This document shows, piece after piece, positions 7,618 through 16,109 of a DNA stretch of 52,084 nt. A program made the position numbers and the translations under genes. The notes beneath the pieces were generated by a model. That model saw only the letters and a list, made by a program, of their open reading frames with translations, had not been told where the DNA came from and did not search any database. The DNA is from a virus, in IMG/VR virus record IMGVR_UViG_3300047655_000011, positions 1 to 52,084 of that record. One strand, written 5' to 3'. Position 1 is the first letter of the stretch. The number at the start of each line of letters is the position of its first letter.

Positions 7618-7650
7618 AAACGTATCAATCTACTGCTCATGGAGGAGCGA

Positions 7651-8229
7651 ATGGGTAACGCAACACCGAAATCAGACGGAATTGGAAACGGTAACCTGAG
7701 ATTGCCCCTGAAGAGTGGCAAGTTCTACACAGTATGGGGTGGACCCTCGCACAGCAGGCCGCAAAGTATGCTCTTTCTGAAGCTGGCCAAAGAGATTGCC
7801 GCACCCTGCGACATCAACATGCCGATGGCTGATTTCTCGGTGCCAACGAAAGGGCAGGTGGACATCGCCCTGACTCTTGCAATTGATTGCATCCTGACAG
7901 GCAAGCCGTTGTACGTGGGCTGCATGGGTGGAAGAGGTCGCACTGGTTTGATGTTGGCCCTTATCGCCAAAGCCTTCCAGGTGAAGTCGCCAGTGCCTTA
8001 TGTACGCAAGCACTACTTTTCTCATGCCGTGGAGACCCCGGAGCAATACAAGTGGGTTACCCGCTACAGGGTGCCAAAGGCGATACGCAGAAGGATTCAT
8101 GCCGCCAGTTGGCTGTCCTATTTGAAGTTAGGCCAGTCCCTCACAAAAAGTGTCGGCTGGGAGAGACACAAGAAGGAAGCCAAGATGTGGGCGTTTTTAA
8201 TCGATAAACTGGCTTCAGTTGTCGGATAA
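7651..8229 (+). CDS. Dual-specificity-type protein phosphatase, paralogue 1
   Basis: 192 residues from ATG 7651. The in-frame ATG at 7639 lies inside the leader that precedes all P-type genes, so I reject it. The phosphatase loop C-x5-R is seen as CMGGRGRT (C91, R97), with a likely general acid D61 in MADFSVP. Cys-dependent phosphatases of this fold remove phosphate from Tyr/Ser/Thr or from nucleic acid ends. The usual His before the Cys is Gly here. It is clearly related to the protein at 9341-10141 (shared YVRKHY and AVE segments after the loop). A palindromic repeat lies inside the gene at 7878-7891. Confidence 0.8.
   Translation: MGNATPKSDGIGNGNLRLPLKSGKFYTVWGGPSHSRPQSMLFLKLAKEIAAPCDINMPMADFSVPTKGQVDIALTLAIDCILTGKPLYVGCMGGRGRTGLMLALIAKAFQVKSPVPYVRKHYFSHAVETPEQYKWVTRYRVPKAIRRRIHAASWLSYLKLGQSLTKSVGWERHKKEAKMWAFLIDKLASVVG
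7878..7891 (-). repeat. 14-bp palindromic repeat, site 4 (perfect)
   Basis: TGCAATTGATTGCA on the + strand (consensus on -), inside the phosphatase gene. It encodes part of LAIDC, 43 bases before the catalytic Cys codon. Confidence 0.9.
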
Positions 8230-8260: not shown

Positions 8261-8297
8261 TATCGTGTATTCAAAAAAGCCTCAATGGAGTGAGACG

Positions 8298-9344
8298 GTG
8301 AAATACAAGCCACAAAACACTTTGAGCTACTTCCTGTCTGCCCCTCAGTTGCAGCAGATCAAGCTGGCTGATATTCCGATCAAGGAGTTGGGTGCTGGGC
8401 AGAAAGCCTATCGTGGGACGTGCGGCCACGCCTCCCCTGACGAAGAAGCAATCCGGTTTTACACCCTGAATCATTTGGCGAGTGTGGTGAAGTCCAAGTT
8501 TACACTGAATGAACCGTTGCCAGCCTGGGCTGTACAGATTATGCAGCGTTACATGGTTGAAGTAACGGCCCAGAGTCAGAGGGCGTTCTTCTACCTGCTG
8601 GCTATCTGCACCAGAGAAGCCCGCCACATGTACTCGAACAAGGTTGCTGATGCCTTCTTTGTGCAAGCAGAGAAAGAGTACGGCACACCGTTTATGAATT
8701 TCTGCAAGAACCTGCCTGGTGGCGAGGAAGAAGCCATGAAAGCAGTCGAGAACAATCCCCCAGACTGCACAGCGGGCCAGTACATAGCTGGACTGTCCTA
8801 CATCTTTTACAAGGGCAAGTGGGCCAGCAGTTTTGGTGGTGCAAAGTGGGGAAATGTTACGGACTGCTTGCTGCACGCGGTGCAGGGCAAGACTTCGATG
8901 GAAATGATGATCGATACTTGCTACACGCTGGCTCACAATGGTGGTCCGATTTTCAATAAGGGGATGATGTACGGGCACTATACAGGGCAGTTCACCAGGA
9001 TTCTTGATATTCAGAGGTCGGGGCAGATGCCTGAGTTGGCCCTAGACAAAGACAAGTACGGCATTCTGATCGTGCCAGAGATGGCCCAGCTTGTGAAGTT
9101 GGCGCAGACTGAAGTGCCTGACCAATTCGGAACCTATGTGGATTGGTACAAAGTGCAGTCCATGGGCGCGGTTGGAAACTACTTGTCGGAACAGAAGCAG
9201 CAAGACAAGAAGCACCCCAAGAAGAAAGAGCCTGTTGTGTTTGGCTTGGTCGAGGCCGAGATGGTCGAGACTGGCAACACCTGGGACAATGGGTTGGGAG
9301 AAGAGTATGAGATTCTTGAAAGGGCGACGGTGGCAAGCGCATGA
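8298..9344 (+). CDS. Conserved-looking phage protein of unknown function
   Basis: 348 residues. GTG 8298 is chosen because it follows the invariant leader at the same distance as other genes of this promoter class; the longer frame from 8265 would start upstream of the leader. The central region has FGGAKWGNVTDCL and then CYTLAHNGGPIFNKGMMY, a well-structured His/Asn/Gly-rich block that looks like a catalytic or metal-binding core. I recall similar blocks in uncharacterised phage proteins but know no function. The C-terminus is charged and low in complexity (KKHPKKKEP). The gene lies between two phosphatase paralogues and overlaps the second by ATGA, suggesting a shared pathway. Confidence 0.7.
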   Translation: MKYKPQNTLSYFLSAPQLQQIKLADIPIKELGAGQKAYRGTCGHASPDEEAIRFYTLNHLASVVKSKFTLNEPLPAWAVQIMQRYMVEVTAQSQRAFFYLLAICTREARHMYSNKVADAFFVQAEKEYGTPFMNFCKNLPGGEEEAMKAVENNPPDCTAGQYIAGLSYIFYKGKWASSFGGAKWGNVTDCLLHAVQGKTSMEMMIDTCYTLAHNGGPIFNKGMMYGHYTGQFTRILDIQRSGQMPELALDKDKYGILIVPEMAQLVKLAQTEVPDQFGTYVDWYKVQSMGAVGNYLSEQKQQDKKHPKKKEPVVFGLVEAEMVETGNTWDNGLGEEYEILERATVASA

Positions 9345-10141
9345 GTATAAAGAGTTTCAGTGACAAGGTGTTCAGTAAGGGGTACTCAAAATGCTCGGAC
9401 ACGCACCCGAACCTGCTGGCCAGTAAGGGCATGTTTCTTTACGGCGGTGCCTGCGGCTACCCTATTCACAAGGACTGTGATGTATATGTCTGCCTGCAAT
9501 CCGGTTCTAGTTCGGGACTGACGAATGACCCCTGGGAAGAGCAGCACGTTGTCGAGATTCACTACTCGATCAATGATGGCTGCGCCCCGTCGAACACAGC
9601 AAGATTTAAGAAGATGATTGACTATCTGTGCAATCAATTGCAGGCCGGGAAGAAAGTACATGTTGGCTGCATTGGTGGGCATGGCAGAACAGGCATTGTG
9701 ATGTCAGCCATTGTAGCCCAGCTTCTTGGCGAGAAGGCTGCCATCAGCTATGTCAGAAAGCATTATTGTCAGAAGGCTGTGGAGAGCCGGTCTCAGGTGA
9801 AGTTCCTGATGGCTAACTATGGAGTGGACAAGGTTGAAGGCAGTAAAGAGGGTCTGTATGATGAATTGGACCCACGGAGTAAAGCCAACTACAGTGGTTT
9901 TGGTTTAGGGTCGAAGTACGGGACGTACAGTTCCAGTTTGAACGCAAAGTTCAAGGAGTGGAGTGGGGATCGTGTCACTTCTGCCTCCGCTGCTGAAGAG
10001 GTTGCTAGGTTTCGGGCAGCCAAGTCAAAGAGGGAAGAGGAGAAGGCGGCCCAGGCACCTAAGCCATCAGGAACCAGCAGGACCTGCGTTCCGTGTGTGA
10101 CTGCAAGGAGCATTTTCAGGAAGAAAAAAGTAAAGAAGTGA
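9341..10141 (+). CDS. Dual-specificity-type protein phosphatase, paralogue 2
   Basis: 266 residues; ATG 9341 overlaps the previous TGA. The loop CIGGHGRT gives C110 and R116, with candidate general acid D79 in SINDGCAP. Downstream YVRKHYCQKAVES parallels YVRKHYFSHAVET in paralogue 1, so the two arose by duplication. It is about 70 residues longer, with a Ser-rich and then basic tail ending in KKKVKK that could contact nucleic acid or membrane. It presumably acts on phosphoproteins or RNA ends in the infected cell. The substrate is unknown, and the unrecognised protein between the two paralogues is the obvious partner candidate. Confidence 0.78.
   Translation: MSIKSFSDKVFSKGYSKCSDTHPNLLASKGMFLYGGACGYPIHKDCDVYVCLQSGSSSGLTNDPWEEQHVVEIHYSINDGCAPSNTARFKKMIDYLCNQLQAGKKVHVGCIGGHGRTGIVMSAIVAQLLGEKAAISYVRKHYCQKAVESRSQVKFLMANYGVDKVEGSKEGLYDELDPRSKANYSGFGLGSKYGTYSSSLNAKFKEWSGDRVTSASAAEEVARFRAAKSKREEEKAAQAPKPSGTSRTCVPCVTARSIFRKKKVKK
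9629..9642 (+). repeat. 14-bp palindromic repeat, site 5 (perfect)
   Basis: TGCAATCAATTGCA inside phosphatase paralogue 2, 39 bases before the catalytic Cys codon. This is nearly the position of site 4 in paralogue 1, but in opposite orientation and a different reading frame (encodes CNQLQ). Confidence 0.92.
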
Positions 10142-10150
10142 AAATACCTC

Positions 10151-10178
10151 TTGACAAACCCGCTCATTGTGCTATCGT
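10151..10178 (+). promoter_or_regulatory. Promoter P5
   Basis: TTGACA 10151-10156, 16-bp spacer, TATCGT 10173-10178. The leader CTCAATGGAGTGAG is at 10200-10213, before the ATG at 10219. Upstream bases AAAATACCTC match those before P10. Confidence 0.9.
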
Positions 10179-10218: not shown

Positions 10219-11388
10219 ATGGCTTTGAATATCAGTCCAGAAACGCATTTGATCTTCTTTGAGAAGTTGTTTGCCGACCAGCCAAAAGTTGTGCAGGCCG
10301 TTAAAGAGATGGCCGCAAAGGGCGCTAAGTTCGAGCAAGCCTTCTACCTGATTAAGATCGAATTCAACGGGAAGGTGTATTCGCAGACTTGCACGGTGCC
10401 TACCAGCAACCTGGTGAAGGGCACGGCTCCAGTAACAGTGATGTTGCAGAACAAGATGGTGATCCTTCTGTTTCTGCATGGTGCTTGGAAAGAGATTATG
10501 GGCACTGAGCCAGCTTTTGAGCTTCCGTACATGGCTGTGAAAGACACGCCAGCCAAGGCCATGAAGTTCATGGATGATGATACCTCTGGGAAGACGGTTG
10601 TAAAGGCTGTCGCCCCCCCAGAACAGAAGATGTATCGGGTGATTCTGGATGCCTGTCTTACAGACAAGATTTCTCTCATCAAGCAGATTCGCAAGGTGTT
10701 TCAGCTTGGCCTGAAAGAGGCCAAGGTTGATGTTGCTGATGTGCTGCCGGTTTTGGTTTTGAACTGCGTAAGTGAAGATGATGTGAAGCTGGTGCAGAAG
10801 GAGTTTGCTGATTTTGCAACCGTGACTGTCGAGCATACTGACTCTGCTCCAACCACTCAGTATTCCATCGCTTCCTGCTTGGACCAGTGCGAGGTTGGTT
10901 TTGCAAGTTACAAGCACCAGCTTGGTATTTTACCTGTCGGTACGTTTGCGGGTACTGTACCAGAGCCAAACTTCTCCAAATCCTCGGTGCTCGCTCAGAA
11001 GGCTCCTAAGAAAAAGCCGCTTGAGTCAGTGATTTCGCTGAAGGACGCTGAAGCAGTTGGCCAGCGTGTTCATGGCACCAGTGGTGGCAGTGTTTACCAT
11101 TGCATCGCGGTTGGCGAGCGCGTTAAGGTAGCTGCAAGGATTCTTACCAGCGGGGGCAGCAAGGCCGTGAGCATTCGCGTGGAAGCTAATAAGCCTACAT
11201 CCGAGGAGTTGCAGAAGATCAAGAACAGCGGCATAGGCTGGAAAGGCGATTATGGCTCCCTGCACCTTAGCGTTGGTAGCTCATCGCTGGGCAGGGCGGT
11301 AGGCGCGTTCTTGATGGGCATGGAAGTTGACTTCAAAGAGAAAGTCGAAAAGGTTTCCGATCTTGTATTAAATGAAGGGAAGGTTTAG
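10219..11388 (+). CDS. Protein with ribosomal L7/L12 C-terminal-like domain
   Basis: 389 residues from ATG 10219. Residues about 137-206 follow the bL12 C-terminal fold: YRVILDACLTDKISLIKQIR, then LGLKEAK (the bL12 signature), then VSEDDVKLVQKEF and a closing TVTVE strand. In ribosomes this domain recruits elongation and initiation factors. Here it sits between about 135 upstream and 180 downstream residues that I do not recognise, so it is not a plain ribosomal protein. Phage-borne bL12 genes are known, which makes a translation-hijacking role reasonable. It leads an operon of small genes to 12422. The C-terminal part is beta-rich with a VAARI segment and no visible catalytic motif. Confidence 0.72.
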   Translation: MALNISPETHLIFFEKLFADQPKVVQAVKEMAAKGAKFEQAFYLIKIEFNGKVYSQTCTVPTSNLVKGTAPVTVMLQNKMVILLFLHGAWKEIMGTEPAFELPYMAVKDTPAKAMKFMDDDTSGKTVVKAVAPPEQKMYRVILDACLTDKISLIKQIRKVFQLGLKEAKVDVADVLPVLVLNCVSEDDVKLVQKEFADFATVTVEHTDSAPTTQYSIASCLDQCEVGFASYKHQLGILPVGTFAGTVPEPNFSKSSVLAQKAPKKKPLESVISLKDAEAVGQRVHGTSGGSVYHCIAVGERVKVAARILTSGGSKAVSIRVEANKPTSEELQKIKNSGIGWKGDYGSLHLSVGSSSLGRAVGAFLMGMEVDFKEKVEKVSDLVLNEGKV

Positions 11389-12909: not shown

Positions 12910-13060
12910 TGCCGGGTGGATTTAGGTCCGAATGCAACAGAAGTTGCCCCGGCTCCAAGTTTGGCGTAGACCAGAGATGGCCCTAGCGAGTGGTGAGGCC
13001 GAAGTAATCAGCCCATAGGGCTGGTCAACCTCGTTGAAACTGTTGCCTCCTACGCCAAAG
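12910..13060 (+). ncRNA. Structured RNA upstream of the tmRNA
   Basis: Two adjacent stem systems and no gene. First, GCCGGG near 12911 pairs with CCCGGC near 12947, enclosing GCAAC-AGAA-GTTGC. Second, TTTGGCGTAG 12960-12969 pairs perfectly with CTACGCCAAA 13050-13059, enclosing GACCAG/CTGGTC and GCCCTA/TAGGGC pairs. The nested order predicts one long branched RNA. It ends only about 20 bases before the acceptor piece of the permuted tmRNA, so it could be part of that precursor or a separate RNA. I cannot place it in a known family. Confidence 0.5.
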
Positions 13061-13061
13061 T

Positions 13062-13440
13062 TAAGCATGTATAAGGTGACGGACTTTGATTTAACACGCG
13101 AGTTCGACTCTCGCCAGGTCCACCAACAAAAACTACGGGCCTGTCACGGTTTCGATTGAATTGGAGAAAGTCATGCAGTTCATGCCGGGATTGGTGCTCA
13201 CCGTAACGAGAACTGAACAAAGACTGCCACTGAAAGTGTCAGCACGAAGGGTAAGCTGTTGATGTTCCCTAACCGGAATGTTGGCCGTGAAGCCCTTCTC
13301 ATGGCTGCCTAATCTCAGCCACGCGCCGTCCAGAGGCGGGGAACAGAAGCCCCTCAGAACATCGAGGGGCACTGGATTAAGTTGTAAACGGCGACATTTT
13401 AGGGCGTTTTAACCGTTAAAATCACCCATCGCCCTTGAGC
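13062..13440 (+). ncRNA. ssrA: Circularly permuted (two-piece) tmRNA
   Basis: The 3' tRNA-like part comes first: T-arm GCGAG-TTCGACT-CTCGC (13098-13114), acceptor CAGGTCC (13115-13121), A and CCA (13123-13125). After an 11-base spacer, the 5' part begins with GGGCCTG (13137-13143), which pairs with that acceptor over 7 bp (one G-U), followed by the tmRNA D-loop signature GGTTTCGA. Helix P2 is supported by TTGAAT/ATTTAA and AAAGTC/GACTTT joining the two parts (13156-13172 with 13082-13094). A reading frame ends GCC CTT CTC ATG GCT GCC TAA (ALLMAA), with the stop (13310-13312) in the loop of a GGCTG/CAGCC hairpin, as in helix P5. Further stems follow (CGCCG/CGGCG, TCCAG/CTGGA, GCCCCTC/GAGGGGC). 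The tag start codon is not resolved. Role: ribosome rescue and protein tagging. Confidence 0.85.
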
Positions 13441-13525
13441 TTTATTTGGGTTACACAGTGGCCCTTGTAGTTTCGGCCATAATCCATTTAGGAGAACCCT
13501 GGCAAGCATGTCACGGGGACACCAG

Positions 13526-13680: not shown

Positions 13681-13700
13681 CGGACTTGAGAGTTGGGCCG

Positions 13701-16109
13701 ATGTCGATACAAATATGGTCGTTTAGATCGAACAGCTATAAAGTGCTGGGTTGCCTATCGCCAGTTTTGAAGAATGCTATGGACGTGCCGGTTAAGGTGA
13801 CGACTGGCGGCTTGGTGTTGCCCGATACGAAGTTGATCCTGGCTTTGGGGAATGAGTCGGCAGCTTTTCTCGCAGGGGAATCCATTATCCCCAAGAACAG
13901 AACGGTTCACGCTCTCAGGGGCTTACAGTTCGCCTATAAAGACGTGCCTGTGTTCCTTTCCTATTCTCCCGATGTTGGAGAAATCAACCACAAGTGGGAA
14001 GTAGACCTGCTAACTGATACTGCCCAGATGATACGGCTGTACAAGACAGGTTCGTTGAAGCCCAAGTATGGTGAGTATCGCTGGGTGGAAGACTTCTCGG
14101 ATGTGATTGCTGGTGTAGAGGCAAAGTTTGCTGCCACTGGAATTCCCGTTGATGTCGCCCATGACAAAGAGACCAGAGGACTCGATCCCTGGTTTAAGCC
14201 GACCATGTACCTGCCGGGTGGCTACATTATTTGCAATCAGTTTGCCTGGGAGAAGGGAAAGTGTGATTGCACTCACTGGGAGAATGAAGAAGTAGAGCGC
14301 GAGAAGCTGAAAAAGGGTTCCCTTTTTAGGGAGCAACAAGAGTGGCTCCTGAATACGCCGAAGATCAGTCTAAGAGGGGCTAATCTGAAGTATGACCTGA
14401 TCTGGGAATATGTGAGGTCTGGATTAGAGTGTACGAACTTCAAGTTCGACACCACGCTGGTTGGCTGCCTGCTTGATGAGGACAGGACCAACAGCCTTGA
14501 TGTGCATACCAAGATTTATGTGCCAGAACTTGGCGGCTACAGTGATGAGTTCGATGCTGCACAAGATAAGGCCAGATTTGACCTGATACCAAAGCAGACC
14601 CTGATACCCTACACCGGAGGAGACGGGGATGCTACGTTGCAGGTGGCCACTGTACTGAAGAAGGAGTTGCTTGCAGACCCGAAGTTGGCGGCCTTTTATG
14701 TGAATGTGCTGCACCCAGGCTGCCGAGCGTTTGAGAAGATTGAGCGTGGCGGTGTTCTAGTGGACCTGCCAAGAACGCTTGAGTTACAGAAGAAGATGGA
14801 TGCTCATCTGGATGGCCTGTTACAGAAGGCCAAGATGATTGTTGGCGGAAGGATTGTAGCCAAGCACTTCGATAATAGCAAGCGTGGCGATCTGAATCTG
14901 ACGAAGCCTTCGATGCTGGTTGATTTCCTGTTTAGTCCTATGGGCCTGAACTTGAAGCCGAGAGCGTTTACTCCGAAGCCTAAGAAGGATGGCACGAAGG
15001 TTCCGAGCACTGCGATGGATAACCTGCTTGAGTTTGAAGACAACGAGGATGCCGCGCCATTCATTGAACTGTTGAAGGACTACTCTAAGACCCAAAAGGC
15101 CAGGGTGACCTATATTGGGGAGCTTGGAGAGTCTGGCTTCTTGCAGTATTTGAGGTCAGATGGCCGATACCACCCAGTGTATTGGCTGTTTACTGGAGAT
15201 GCAGACGAAGATGAGGGCGGAACTGTTACTGGTAGGCTGAGTTGTAAGTGTCCTGCGTTTCAAACGGTGCCAAAGCACCATCCGTGGGCGGAAGAGATTC
15301 GCAAGTGCTTTATAGCACCCCCAGGAATGTTACTAATGGAGCGTGATTACTCGCAGGGAGAACTGAAGATCGTTGCCTGTATTGCCGGTTGCAAGAGTAT
15401 GTTGGAGATTTACGCGGCTGGCAAAGATTTGCATGTTGACACTGCTGCTTTCGTTTCAGGTATGACCTATGACCAGTTGGCTGCTTTAGAGGCTACAGAT
15501 AAGTATTTGTTTGAGGAGACCAGGCAGAAGGGTAAGGCTGGGAATTTCGGACTTGTGTACGGTATGAGTGCTTGCGGCAATGATGGCAAGGGCGGCTTTG
15601 TTGCCTACGCCAAGAAGACCTACCGCGTGATTATGGCCCCCGCAGACGCTGAGAAGTTTCGTGCGGGGTTCTTTGCGCAGAAGCCAGAGTTGGTCGCCTA
15701 TCACAAGGAGTACAAGGCATTTGCTCATGCTAACGGCTATGTAAGAACACCCATGGGGCGCATACGCCATCTGTGGCTGATTAACTCGCCTTTGAGAGAG
15801 ATTGCTTCCAAGGCTGAGAGGCAGGCCGTAAATTCGCCTGTTCAGGGTGCCCTGTCGGATATGATGATTTGGTCTCTGGCTCTGGAAGATGCCGCAGGTT
15901 ACACAAAGGAGTGCCCTGGTTTTGGTGTGGTACATGACGCGGGCTACAACTACGTGCCGGAAGATAATGCTGCGATGTGGGGTAAGAAGCACAAGGAAAT
16001 CATGCAGAATCTTCCGTTTGAGAGGGTTGGCTGGCACCCCCAGTTGCAGTTTACCGCTGATGTAAAGGTTGGGCCGAACATGGGCGAGCTTTCAAAGTTG
16101 AAGTGTTAA
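13701..16109 (+). CDS. polA: Family A DNA polymerase with 3'-5' exonuclease
   Basis: 802 residues from ATG 13701; TTG 13686 is in frame but lacks a better ribosome site, and the start is uncertain. The exonuclease domain shows DKETRGLDP (D-x-E) and NLKYDLIWE (the N-x-x-x-D motif). The polymerase domain shows motif A as DYSQGELK, motif B as KAGNFGLVYG, then MGRIRHLWLINSP and ERQAVNSPVQGALSD, and motif C as VVHDAGY. The usual HDE of motif C is HDA here; the metal-binding Asp is kept but the next Glu is lost. Length and order fit a complete replicative phage polymerase without a 5' nuclease. It follows a palindromic site and the tmRNA terminator. Confidence 0.93.
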   Translation: MSIQIWSFRSNSYKVLGCLSPVLKNAMDVPVKVTTGGLVLPDTKLILALGNESAAFLAGESIIPKNRTVHALRGLQFAYKDVPVFLSYSPDVGEINHKWEVDLLTDTAQMIRLYKTGSLKPKYGEYRWVEDFSDVIAGVEAKFAATGIPVDVAHDKETRGLDPWFKPTMYLPGGYIICNQFAWEKGKCDCTHWENEEVEREKLKKGSLFREQQEWLLNTPKISLRGANLKYDLIWEYVRSGLECTNFKFDTTLVGCLLDEDRTNSLDVHTKIYVPELGGYSDEFDAAQDKARFDLIPKQTLIPYTGGDGDATLQVATVLKKELLADPKLAAFYVNVLHPGCRAFEKIERGGVLVDLPRTLELQKKMDAHLDGLLQKAKMIVGGRIVAKHFDNSKRGDLNLTKPSMLVDFLFSPMGLNLKPRAFTPKPKKDGTKVPSTAMDNLLEFEDNEDAAPFIELLKDYSKTQKARVTYIGELGESGFLQYLRSDGRYHPVYWLFTGDADEDEGGTVTGRLSCKCPAFQTVPKHHPWAEEIRKCFIAPPGMLLMERDYSQGELKIVACIAGCKSMLEIYAAGKDLHVDTAAFVSGMTYDQLAALEATDKYLFEETRQKGKAGNFGLVYGMSACGNDGKGGFVAYAKKTYRVIMAPADAEKFRAGFFAQKPELVAYHKEYKAFAHANGYVRTPMGRIRHLWLINSPLREIASKAERQAVNSPVQGALSDMMIWSLALEDAAGYTKECPGFGVVHDAGYNYVPEDNAAMWGKKHKEIMQNLPFERVGWHPQLQFTADVKVGPNMGELSKLKC

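Follow-up and report, generated by a model that had tools for sequence, protein, structure and literature searches.

We analysed a 52,084-nucleotide stretch of viral DNA, IMG/VR record IMGVR_UViG_3300047655_000011 from its position 1 to 52,084 (the window), and in it one open reading frame (ORF), 10219-11388, whose 389-residue product contains a domain resembling the C-terminal domain of ribosomal protein bL12. The ORF is as an earlier reading of the sequence, made without database searches (the original prediction), had given it: it lies on the plus strand and starts with ATG, and GGAG is found 9 nucleotides 5' of the start codon. Below, "bL12 domain" means the domain in the middle of the protein and "C-terminal domain" the last domain of the protein itself. 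The parts of the ORF are as follows; confidence values are predicted local distance difference test scores (pLDDT) and predicted template modelling scores (pTM) of AlphaFold2 models.

10219..11388, plus strand: ORF of 389 amino acids with the bL12 C-terminal domain inside; ATG start, syntenic orthologues
10237..10500, plus strand: N-terminal domain, residues 7-94, helix-helix-strand-strand-strand-helix-helix; pLDDT 74-93 in blocks 11-100, alignments
10528..10626, plus strand: linker 1, residues 104-136, predicted disordered; pLDDT <50
10630..10839, plus strand: bL12 C-terminal domain, residues 138-207; Pfam, PDB sequence search, AlphaFold2 model, fold match, residue check
10840..11001, plus strand: linker 2, residues 208-261, predicted disordered; pLDDT <50
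11032..11358, plus strand: conserved C-terminal domain that defines the family, residues 272-380; pLDDT 93.1, pTM 0.88, BLASTP, profile

The bL12 domain within the window protein

The middle domain of the window protein is confirmed as a bL12 C-terminal domain in that sequence comparison and predicted fold agree. For the Pfam family PF00542 the score at residues 140-203 is 34.0 bits (E-value 3.7e-8; curated cut-off 25.9), and this is the single PF00542 match in the whole window. When the protein was compared with PDB sequences by phmmer, the best match was E. coli bL12 (residues 132-198, E 5.8e-5). A profile built from E. coli bL12 and the other phage domains, with the window's domain left out, still gives the window protein 23.3 bits, and 100 shuffles of that protein at most 4.6 bits. 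The AlphaFold2 model of the whole protein was made from a 12-row alignment of the window and IMG/VR sequences (mean pLDDT 70.0, pTM 0.38). It has strands at 138-144, 178-183 and 201-207 and helices at 150-161, 165-173 and 186-196, that is, beta-alpha-alpha-beta-alpha-beta, and VIA-align matches this domain with that of E. coli bL12 (1ctf) at Z 8.8, with a root-mean-square deviation of 2.0 over 66 residues and 36% identity. The fold match alone is not overwhelming, because the bL12 stretch is modelled with moderate confidence (pLDDT 61-73 in blocks 141-210) and unrelated VIA-align rows reach Z 7.0 (penicillin-binding protein 3). The original prediction had put a bL12 C-terminal-like domain at residues 137-206. 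This is borne out by the PF00542 and 1ctf matches, the limits being off by one or two residues, and structure prediction, which had been proposed as the check on it, gives residues 138-207 the bL12 fold and no different one. The PHROG family found at this stretch is phrog_26927, of unknown function (residues 140-175, E 0.0016). The orthologue in Stenotrophomonas phage DLP_5 is the top match when the window protein is compared with a library of viral models; phage proteins named as bL12 C-terminal-domain proteins are among the lower rows, presumably owing to the middle domain.

The fold match does not discriminate bL12 from ClpS, because both have that fold. ClpS structures match the middle domain with Z 7.4-9.2, so that they tie with bL12 on the model (Z 9.2 and 8.8). 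Such a tie would suit the explanation that the fold of bL12 has been put to new use as a general adaptor, much as in the structurally related ClpS, for a phage-specific or another host partner. In sequence, however, the ClpS rows are 10-20% identical to the domain (11% for the row with Z 9.2), whereas bL12 is 36% identical, and for the window protein Pfam lists bL12 and no ClpS family at E <=1. Residues that bear further on this explanation are given with the binding site.

The N-terminal domain of bL12, which serves dimerisation and uL10 binding, was not detected in the window protein, where Pfam gives PF00542 alone at E <=1. The full-length bL12 model TIGR00855 of NCBIfam covers residues 130-198 only, and its score there is 32.2 bits (cut-off 84.4). 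The protein is therefore unlikely to become part of the ribosomal stalk in the ordinary way. The original prediction had also suggested docking on ribosomes; docking in the manner of bL12 finds no support. It has been proposed for phage ribosomal proteins that they enter ribosomes in place of their host counterparts, and a peptide of the bL12-domain protein of Salmonella phage FSL SP-076 is reported from E. coli ribosome fractions (PMC6375957). According to the same report, however, a tagged phage bL12 protein gave no ribosome purification. For the window protein, we regard replacement of host bL12 in ribosomes as very improbable.

Apart from this domain, the protein is the product of a core gene in Delepquintavirus-related siphoviruses. 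The C-terminal domain is common to all five orthologues that were compared first; BLASTP links the window protein directly to four of them, and RHph_TM16 is reached through the others only. The BLASTP E-value between the window protein and RcZahn_12 is 1e-13, and the profile of the C-terminal domain, which has the window in its seed, gives it 107.8 bits. In alignments, the N-terminal domain is common to the orthologues that carry the bL12 domain and to some others. The C-terminal domain was also modelled by itself from 61 sequences, L070, L072 and L077 having been dropped from the alignment (L numbers denote the collected loci). This model (pLDDT 93.1, pTM 0.88) had no Foldseek match in the PDB at E 0.001 and no convincing relative among the PDB folds listed by VIA-align (best Z 4.6), and the profile of the domain found nothing among PDB sequences at E <=5. 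The resemblances to T4 MotA (Z 3.8) and to chains of DHH-family phosphodiesterase, RecJ and NrnA (Z 3.2-3.8) are below the level of evidence for the fold of this domain.

Orthologues with and without the bL12 domain

Relatives were obtained through the neighbouring phrog_20946 protein, then through the C-terminal domain of other orthologues, and then through an alignment of the orthologues that carry the bL12 domain (carriers). The whole window protein found no relative among 50,697 phage records at E <=0.01; in IMG/VR it gave three stretches that matched a pattern and no relative, and the bL12 stretch alone gave 19 such stretches and no relative. Against the phage collection at E <=10, the bL12 stretch had ten weak matches (best E 0.3), of which four carry the annotation ribosomal protein L7/L12 (two are in records under the name Salmonella enterica, two in records under Acinetobacter phage) and six are unannotated. 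With the phrog_20946 protein as the anchor, 70 IMG/VR loci were collected. The iterated C-terminal-domain profile then found 77 ORFs in 83 sequences, namely in the window, its copy L001, 11 loci of named phages and 64 of the 70 IMG/VR loci; the six loci that gave no orthologue (L025, L027, L052, L053, L055 and L057) extend between 2 and 1,383 bases beyond the anchor match. A 72-row set was made from these by omitting L001, L022, L029 and L042, which are identical to a kept row, and L035, which is similar to L034.

The bL12 domain is found in a minority of the orthologues. PF00542 at E <=0.05 matches 7 of the 72. When whole records were searched at E <=1, 8 of 50 were matched, five of them above the cut-off, and a further 20 records gave none; six of these eight matches are in orthologues, one is in a separate ORF (L025) and one is a weak match elsewhere in its record (L061, E 0.018). 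No PF00542 match was found in the 11 named phage records searched whole at E <=10. When IMG/VR was scanned again, with carriers and non-carriers aligned together, three more distinct carriers were obtained, L094, L097 (with L098 and L099 as copies of the same protein, which are omitted from the resulting 75-row set) and L103. By the profile of the phage domains, the bL12 domain is present in 11 of the 75 orthologues (the window, L013, L015, L016, L021, L024, L026, L031, L094, L097 and L103) and absent from 64. Every one of these carriers is an IMG/VR contig. Three of the 64 are short ORFs of 131-147 amino acids that may be incomplete (L058, L072 and L077).

These numbers bear on the explanation that the insert is passive, a captured host fragment that serves as a partnerless spacer between the core domains. 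It would fit this explanation that variation is free in the linkers and in the middle slot of the orthologues, several of which have a linker-like stretch only. The domain has been kept, however, in 11 diverged orthologues, which are set apart by a clean gap in score (63.6-97.1 bits for carriers, at most 3.6 bits for the best non-carrier). Since the carriers themselves built this profile, the scoring was repeated with leave-one-out profiles, which still gave the 11 carriers 23.3-69.1 bits, compared with no more than 7.1 bits for 100 shuffled versions of each. Mean pairwise identity among the 11 carriers is 37.9% for the N-terminal domain, 26.7% for the bL12 domain, 55.3% for the C-terminal domain and 19.2% and 17.7% for the linkers. 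The bL12 domain is thus more conserved than the linkers, held, if loosely, and its conservation is centred on the binding site. A passive insert appears improbable to us.

The history of the insert was considered from two trees. In the tree of the C-terminal domain the carriers are clustered, with two changes needed compared with a mean of 10.5 when the labels were shuffled. Nine carriers form a clade (support 99/86), and the window stands beside L018, L023 and L014, which have no bL12 domain, with weak support (91/18); this tree has few columns and its bootstrap had not settled. In the tree of the N- and C-terminal domains together, all 11 carriers are on one side of a branch with 67/63 support, which occurs in 64% of 200 bootstrap trees; it has 26 rows and several long branches. 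As far as these sequences go, a single gain is likely, and the most economical account would be one gain, either alone or with one loss. In a relative of the same group, on L083, the contig of L025, a separate ORF of 134 amino acids (1276-1677) ends in a bL12 C-terminal domain, which is probably a second capture. Other orthologues have long N-terminal extensions (L005, 11084-13273, 729 residues; L044, 7878-9560, 561 residues), and in DLP_3 a weak DUF7210-like match (E 0.042) precedes the C-terminal domain. The region between the N-terminus and the C-terminal domain seems to be where parts are changed. When bacterial and archaeal genomes were scanned with nine aligned carriers (the window and L013 not among them), there were 34 stretches that matched a pattern and no relative, so no host or prophage was identified.

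The binding site and its possible clients

The C-terminal domain of bL12 is reported to bind IF2, EF-Tu, EF-G and RF3 via a conserved positive site on helices 4 and 5 (PMC6753160). K65, K70, K81 and K84 are described as highly conserved in bacteria, and changes of K65 and K70 as weakening EF-Tu binding, with the dissociation constant rising from 0.74 to 1.3-2.7 uM (PMC10602876). In the window protein K150, I151, I154, K155, R158, L165, K166, E167 and K169 correspond to E. coli K65, V66, I69, K70, R73, L80, K81, E82 and K84, so that eight of nine checked sites are identical and the ninth is V66I. Among these sites we take V66, I69, R73, L80 and E82 to be factor contacts, and K84 to belong to the same site. 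The domain of the separate L083 ORF is likewise identical at eight of the nine, with V66 as I.

Conservation was measured over 65 columns in 12 phage domains, those of the 11 orthologues and that of the L083 ORF. K70 and K84 are the sole invariant columns, 2 of 65. The mean entropy is 1.07 bits at the nine sites and 2.17 bits elsewhere (p 3e-4). Capture of elongation factors, which the original prediction had suggested, is plausible from the sequences, with the sites kept in the window and K70 and K84 invariant in the 12 phage domains. The adaptor explanation would agree with the finding that, within the nine-member carrier clade, K65 is present in two and R73 in four. The invariance of K70 and K84, which belong to the bL12 site, speaks against it. 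On balance, we consider a ClpS-like adaptor unlikely.

We propose instead, and give it about an even chance, that the bL12 domain acts as a tethered bait, which would attract translational GTPases or other clients of the ribosomal stalk. The conserved N- and C-terminal domains would make up the family's own core. The DLP3 orthologue gp142 is not among the 21 virion proteins identified by mass spectrometry in a published account (PMC7326821), and the core protein is therefore probably intracellular. The captured bL12 domain would sit between the core domains on two flexible linkers, and its lysine patch on helices 4 and 5 (E. coli K65, K70, K81 and K84) would bind the surface with which clients normally contact the ribosomal stalk. 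The likeliest clients would be the translational GTPases EF-Tu, EF-G, IF2 and RF3, which may be brought to the location of the phage protein or, in part, kept from host ribosomes. We infer GTPase binding and its purpose, whether recruiting or sequestering, from the domain, its predicted fold, the architecture, the distribution and the kept residues.

Several points weigh against a tethered bait. In the account of Mizuno et al. (PMC6375957), the tagged phage bL12 protein was unusable for purifying ribosomes. The DLP3 protein gp142 has itself no bL12 domain, and neither have 64 of the 75 orthologues, so the domain is not needed for the core function. The PF00542 cut-off for whole proteins is passed only by the window, L013, L016 and L103. 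L015, L024, L026, L031 and L094 are below it (E 1.8e-5 to 0.0054), and L021 and L097 are assigned through orthology and the phage profile, because Pfam gives no match for the former and E 0.19 for the latter. The p-value for the nine sites is optimistic and a guide only, because the carriers are related and were found partly through the motif; some of the nine sites are hydrophobic and may be kept for folding. K65 is present in 5 of the 12 phage domains and R73 in 7, so the natural interface has partly drifted; position 82 is E or D in 7. The bL12 domain also evolves faster than the C-terminal domain (26.7% compared with 55.3% identity).

This faster evolution, together with the patchy presence of the domain (11 of 75), would also suit a part in an arms race. 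A free bL12 domain could be a decoy that soaks up stalk-dependent defence or stress effectors and so shields phage translation. Some antiviral ribonucleases are reported to reach the ribosome via the stalk, such as Cami1, a CARF-RelE protein of type III CRISPR (PMC11229360). The same conserved lysines are predicted in both cases, and the data at hand do not separate a decoy from a bait for GTPases. However, neither a host, a CRISPR type nor such an effector was identified for the window phage, and most orthologues are without the domain. A decoy therefore seems doubtful to us. We also considered a more specific form of the tethered bait, in which the C-terminal domain would hold the protein at phage nucleic acid or where replication takes place, and EF-Tu, EF-G and IF2 would be gathered there by the bL12 arm. 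The C-terminal domain is encoded beside the DNA polymerase gene, and its weak resemblance to the DNA-binding domain of T4 MotA is below the level of evidence; the idea is highly speculative. If true, it would amount to a "second stalk" of the phage's own, with phage transcription and translation coupled on the spot.

Neighbouring features and comparison with known systems

The ORF stands in a block of genes that is conserved in related phages. The following features flank it.

8265..9344, plus strand: phrog_20946 protein; upstream; anchor for collecting relatives
9341..10141, plus strand: DSP-type tyrosine phosphatase-like protein, PF22785 (27.9 bits, cut-off 27); upstream; same order in relatives
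10151..10178, plus strand: sigma-70-like promoter match, TTGACA, 16 nucleotides, TATCGT, with TG before the second hexamer; 5' of the ORF
13686..16109, plus strand: DNA polymerase, phrog_17; downstream; closes the conserved block

The promoter match is weak, because two matches were found in the stretch and 1.2 were expected. At 10705-10725, across the codons for LGLKEAK, there is a terminator-like stem that is at no more than chance level.

The neighbours place the phage near Delepquintavirus, that is, the Stenotrophomonas phages DLP_3, DLP_5 and Summit, with Rhodobacter phage RcZahn, Rhizobium phages and a set of Vibrio siphoviruses as further relatives, and its capsid protein shares 66-67% identity with the Stenotrophomonas phage counterparts. 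In all five records of Summit, DLP_5, RcZahn, RHph_TM16 and RHph_Y1_11 the order is pyruvate phosphate dikinase, small genes, tyrosine phosphatase, phrog_20946, a second phosphatase-like gene, the orthologue of the window protein, small genes and DNA polymerase. The window has the same order of phosphatase, phrog_20946, phosphatase, ORF 10219-11388 and DNA polymerase. In five Vibrio phages the block is shorter, with the orthologue immediately 5' of the polymerase. The two phrog_17568 ORFs of the window (7639-8229 and 9341-10141) have the PHROG label "thymidylate synthase", yet Pfam gives DSP-type tyrosine phosphatase domains; the label is also found in deposited records, for example DLP_5 DLP05_143.

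The original prediction had grouped the bL12 domain with a transfer-messenger RNA (tmRNA) and a CsrA-like protein as three candidate translation-control elements in the window. The tmRNA stands: ARAGORN gives a permuted (two-piece) gene at 13030-13503, and Rfam gives an RF04321 match at 13065-13312 with 61.8 bits (cut-off 47). The usual tmRNA tag ends in alanines; the tag given by ARAGORN may be misread, because it does not. Two-piece tmRNA in phages has already been reported (PMC9004378). The small ORF at 7004-7273 matches CsrA below the Pfam cut-off (15.3 bits, cut-off 27), although it is a conserved gene of the group, being matched in 66 of 82 other sequences at E <=0.05, copies included, in most cases roughly 1 kb before the anchor gene. 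In our reading, both of its ends look like CsrA, with about 45 residues inserted midway. The three elements showed no association. Among ten relative loci, six of them with the bL12 domain, Rfam finds a tmRNA only in L014, which has no bL12 domain; the lack of association is a weak result because the loci are partial. The RF04321 match of L014 (3000-3296) lies among transfer RNA genes and is unreported by ARAGORN, which found no tmRNA on 41 loci.

Of the known families, phrog_25950 (unknown function) is matched by 44 of 72 orthologues and has the same place before the DNA polymerase. The window protein, in contrast, does not match it at E 0.001, and most members of the family are without the bL12 domain. 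The window domain is like the C-terminal domain of ribosomal protein bL12 in profile, predicted fold and checked sites. It also has low-confidence linkers on both sides, as the natural domain is on a flexible hinge. It differs from the ribosomal protein in being flanked by two unrelated domains, with no N-terminal dimerisation domain detected.

Phage proteins of this kind are known. Mizuno et al. in 2019 described bL12 domains in larger phage proteins as well as homologues without them (PMC6375957), and L7/L12 is also in the list of "Clades of huge phages" (PMC7162821). The window protein likewise has the domain in a larger polypeptide and domain-less homologues (here 64 of 75), and conserved factor-contact residues are reported for the 2019 proteins too (PMC6375957). 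The bL12 domain of AGF88397 (418 amino acids) from Salmonella phage FSL SP-076 matches our phage profile with E 1.5e-11. This protein has another backbone, however, with no match to the C-terminal-domain profile of the window family, and SP-076 belongs to the Schitoviridae, whereas the window group consists of siphovirus relatives of Delepquintavirus. Among the matches listed in a search of open-access literature, no report of bL12 domains in the Delepquintavirus-related group was found. Another published backbone is that of Erwinia phage Ea9-2 (724 amino acids). New here are a further backbone family, on comparison with AGF88397, its distribution of carriers and non-carriers, and conservation centred on the binding site. 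If GTPases are bound, phages would have repeatedly borrowed the recruiting arm of the ribosome for proteins of their own. Orthologues with and without the arm at the same gene place provide a natural comparison, and the question that comes from the 2019 report, whether such domains are bait, decoy or ribosome part, is testable in this family with a small domain and a few lysine changes.
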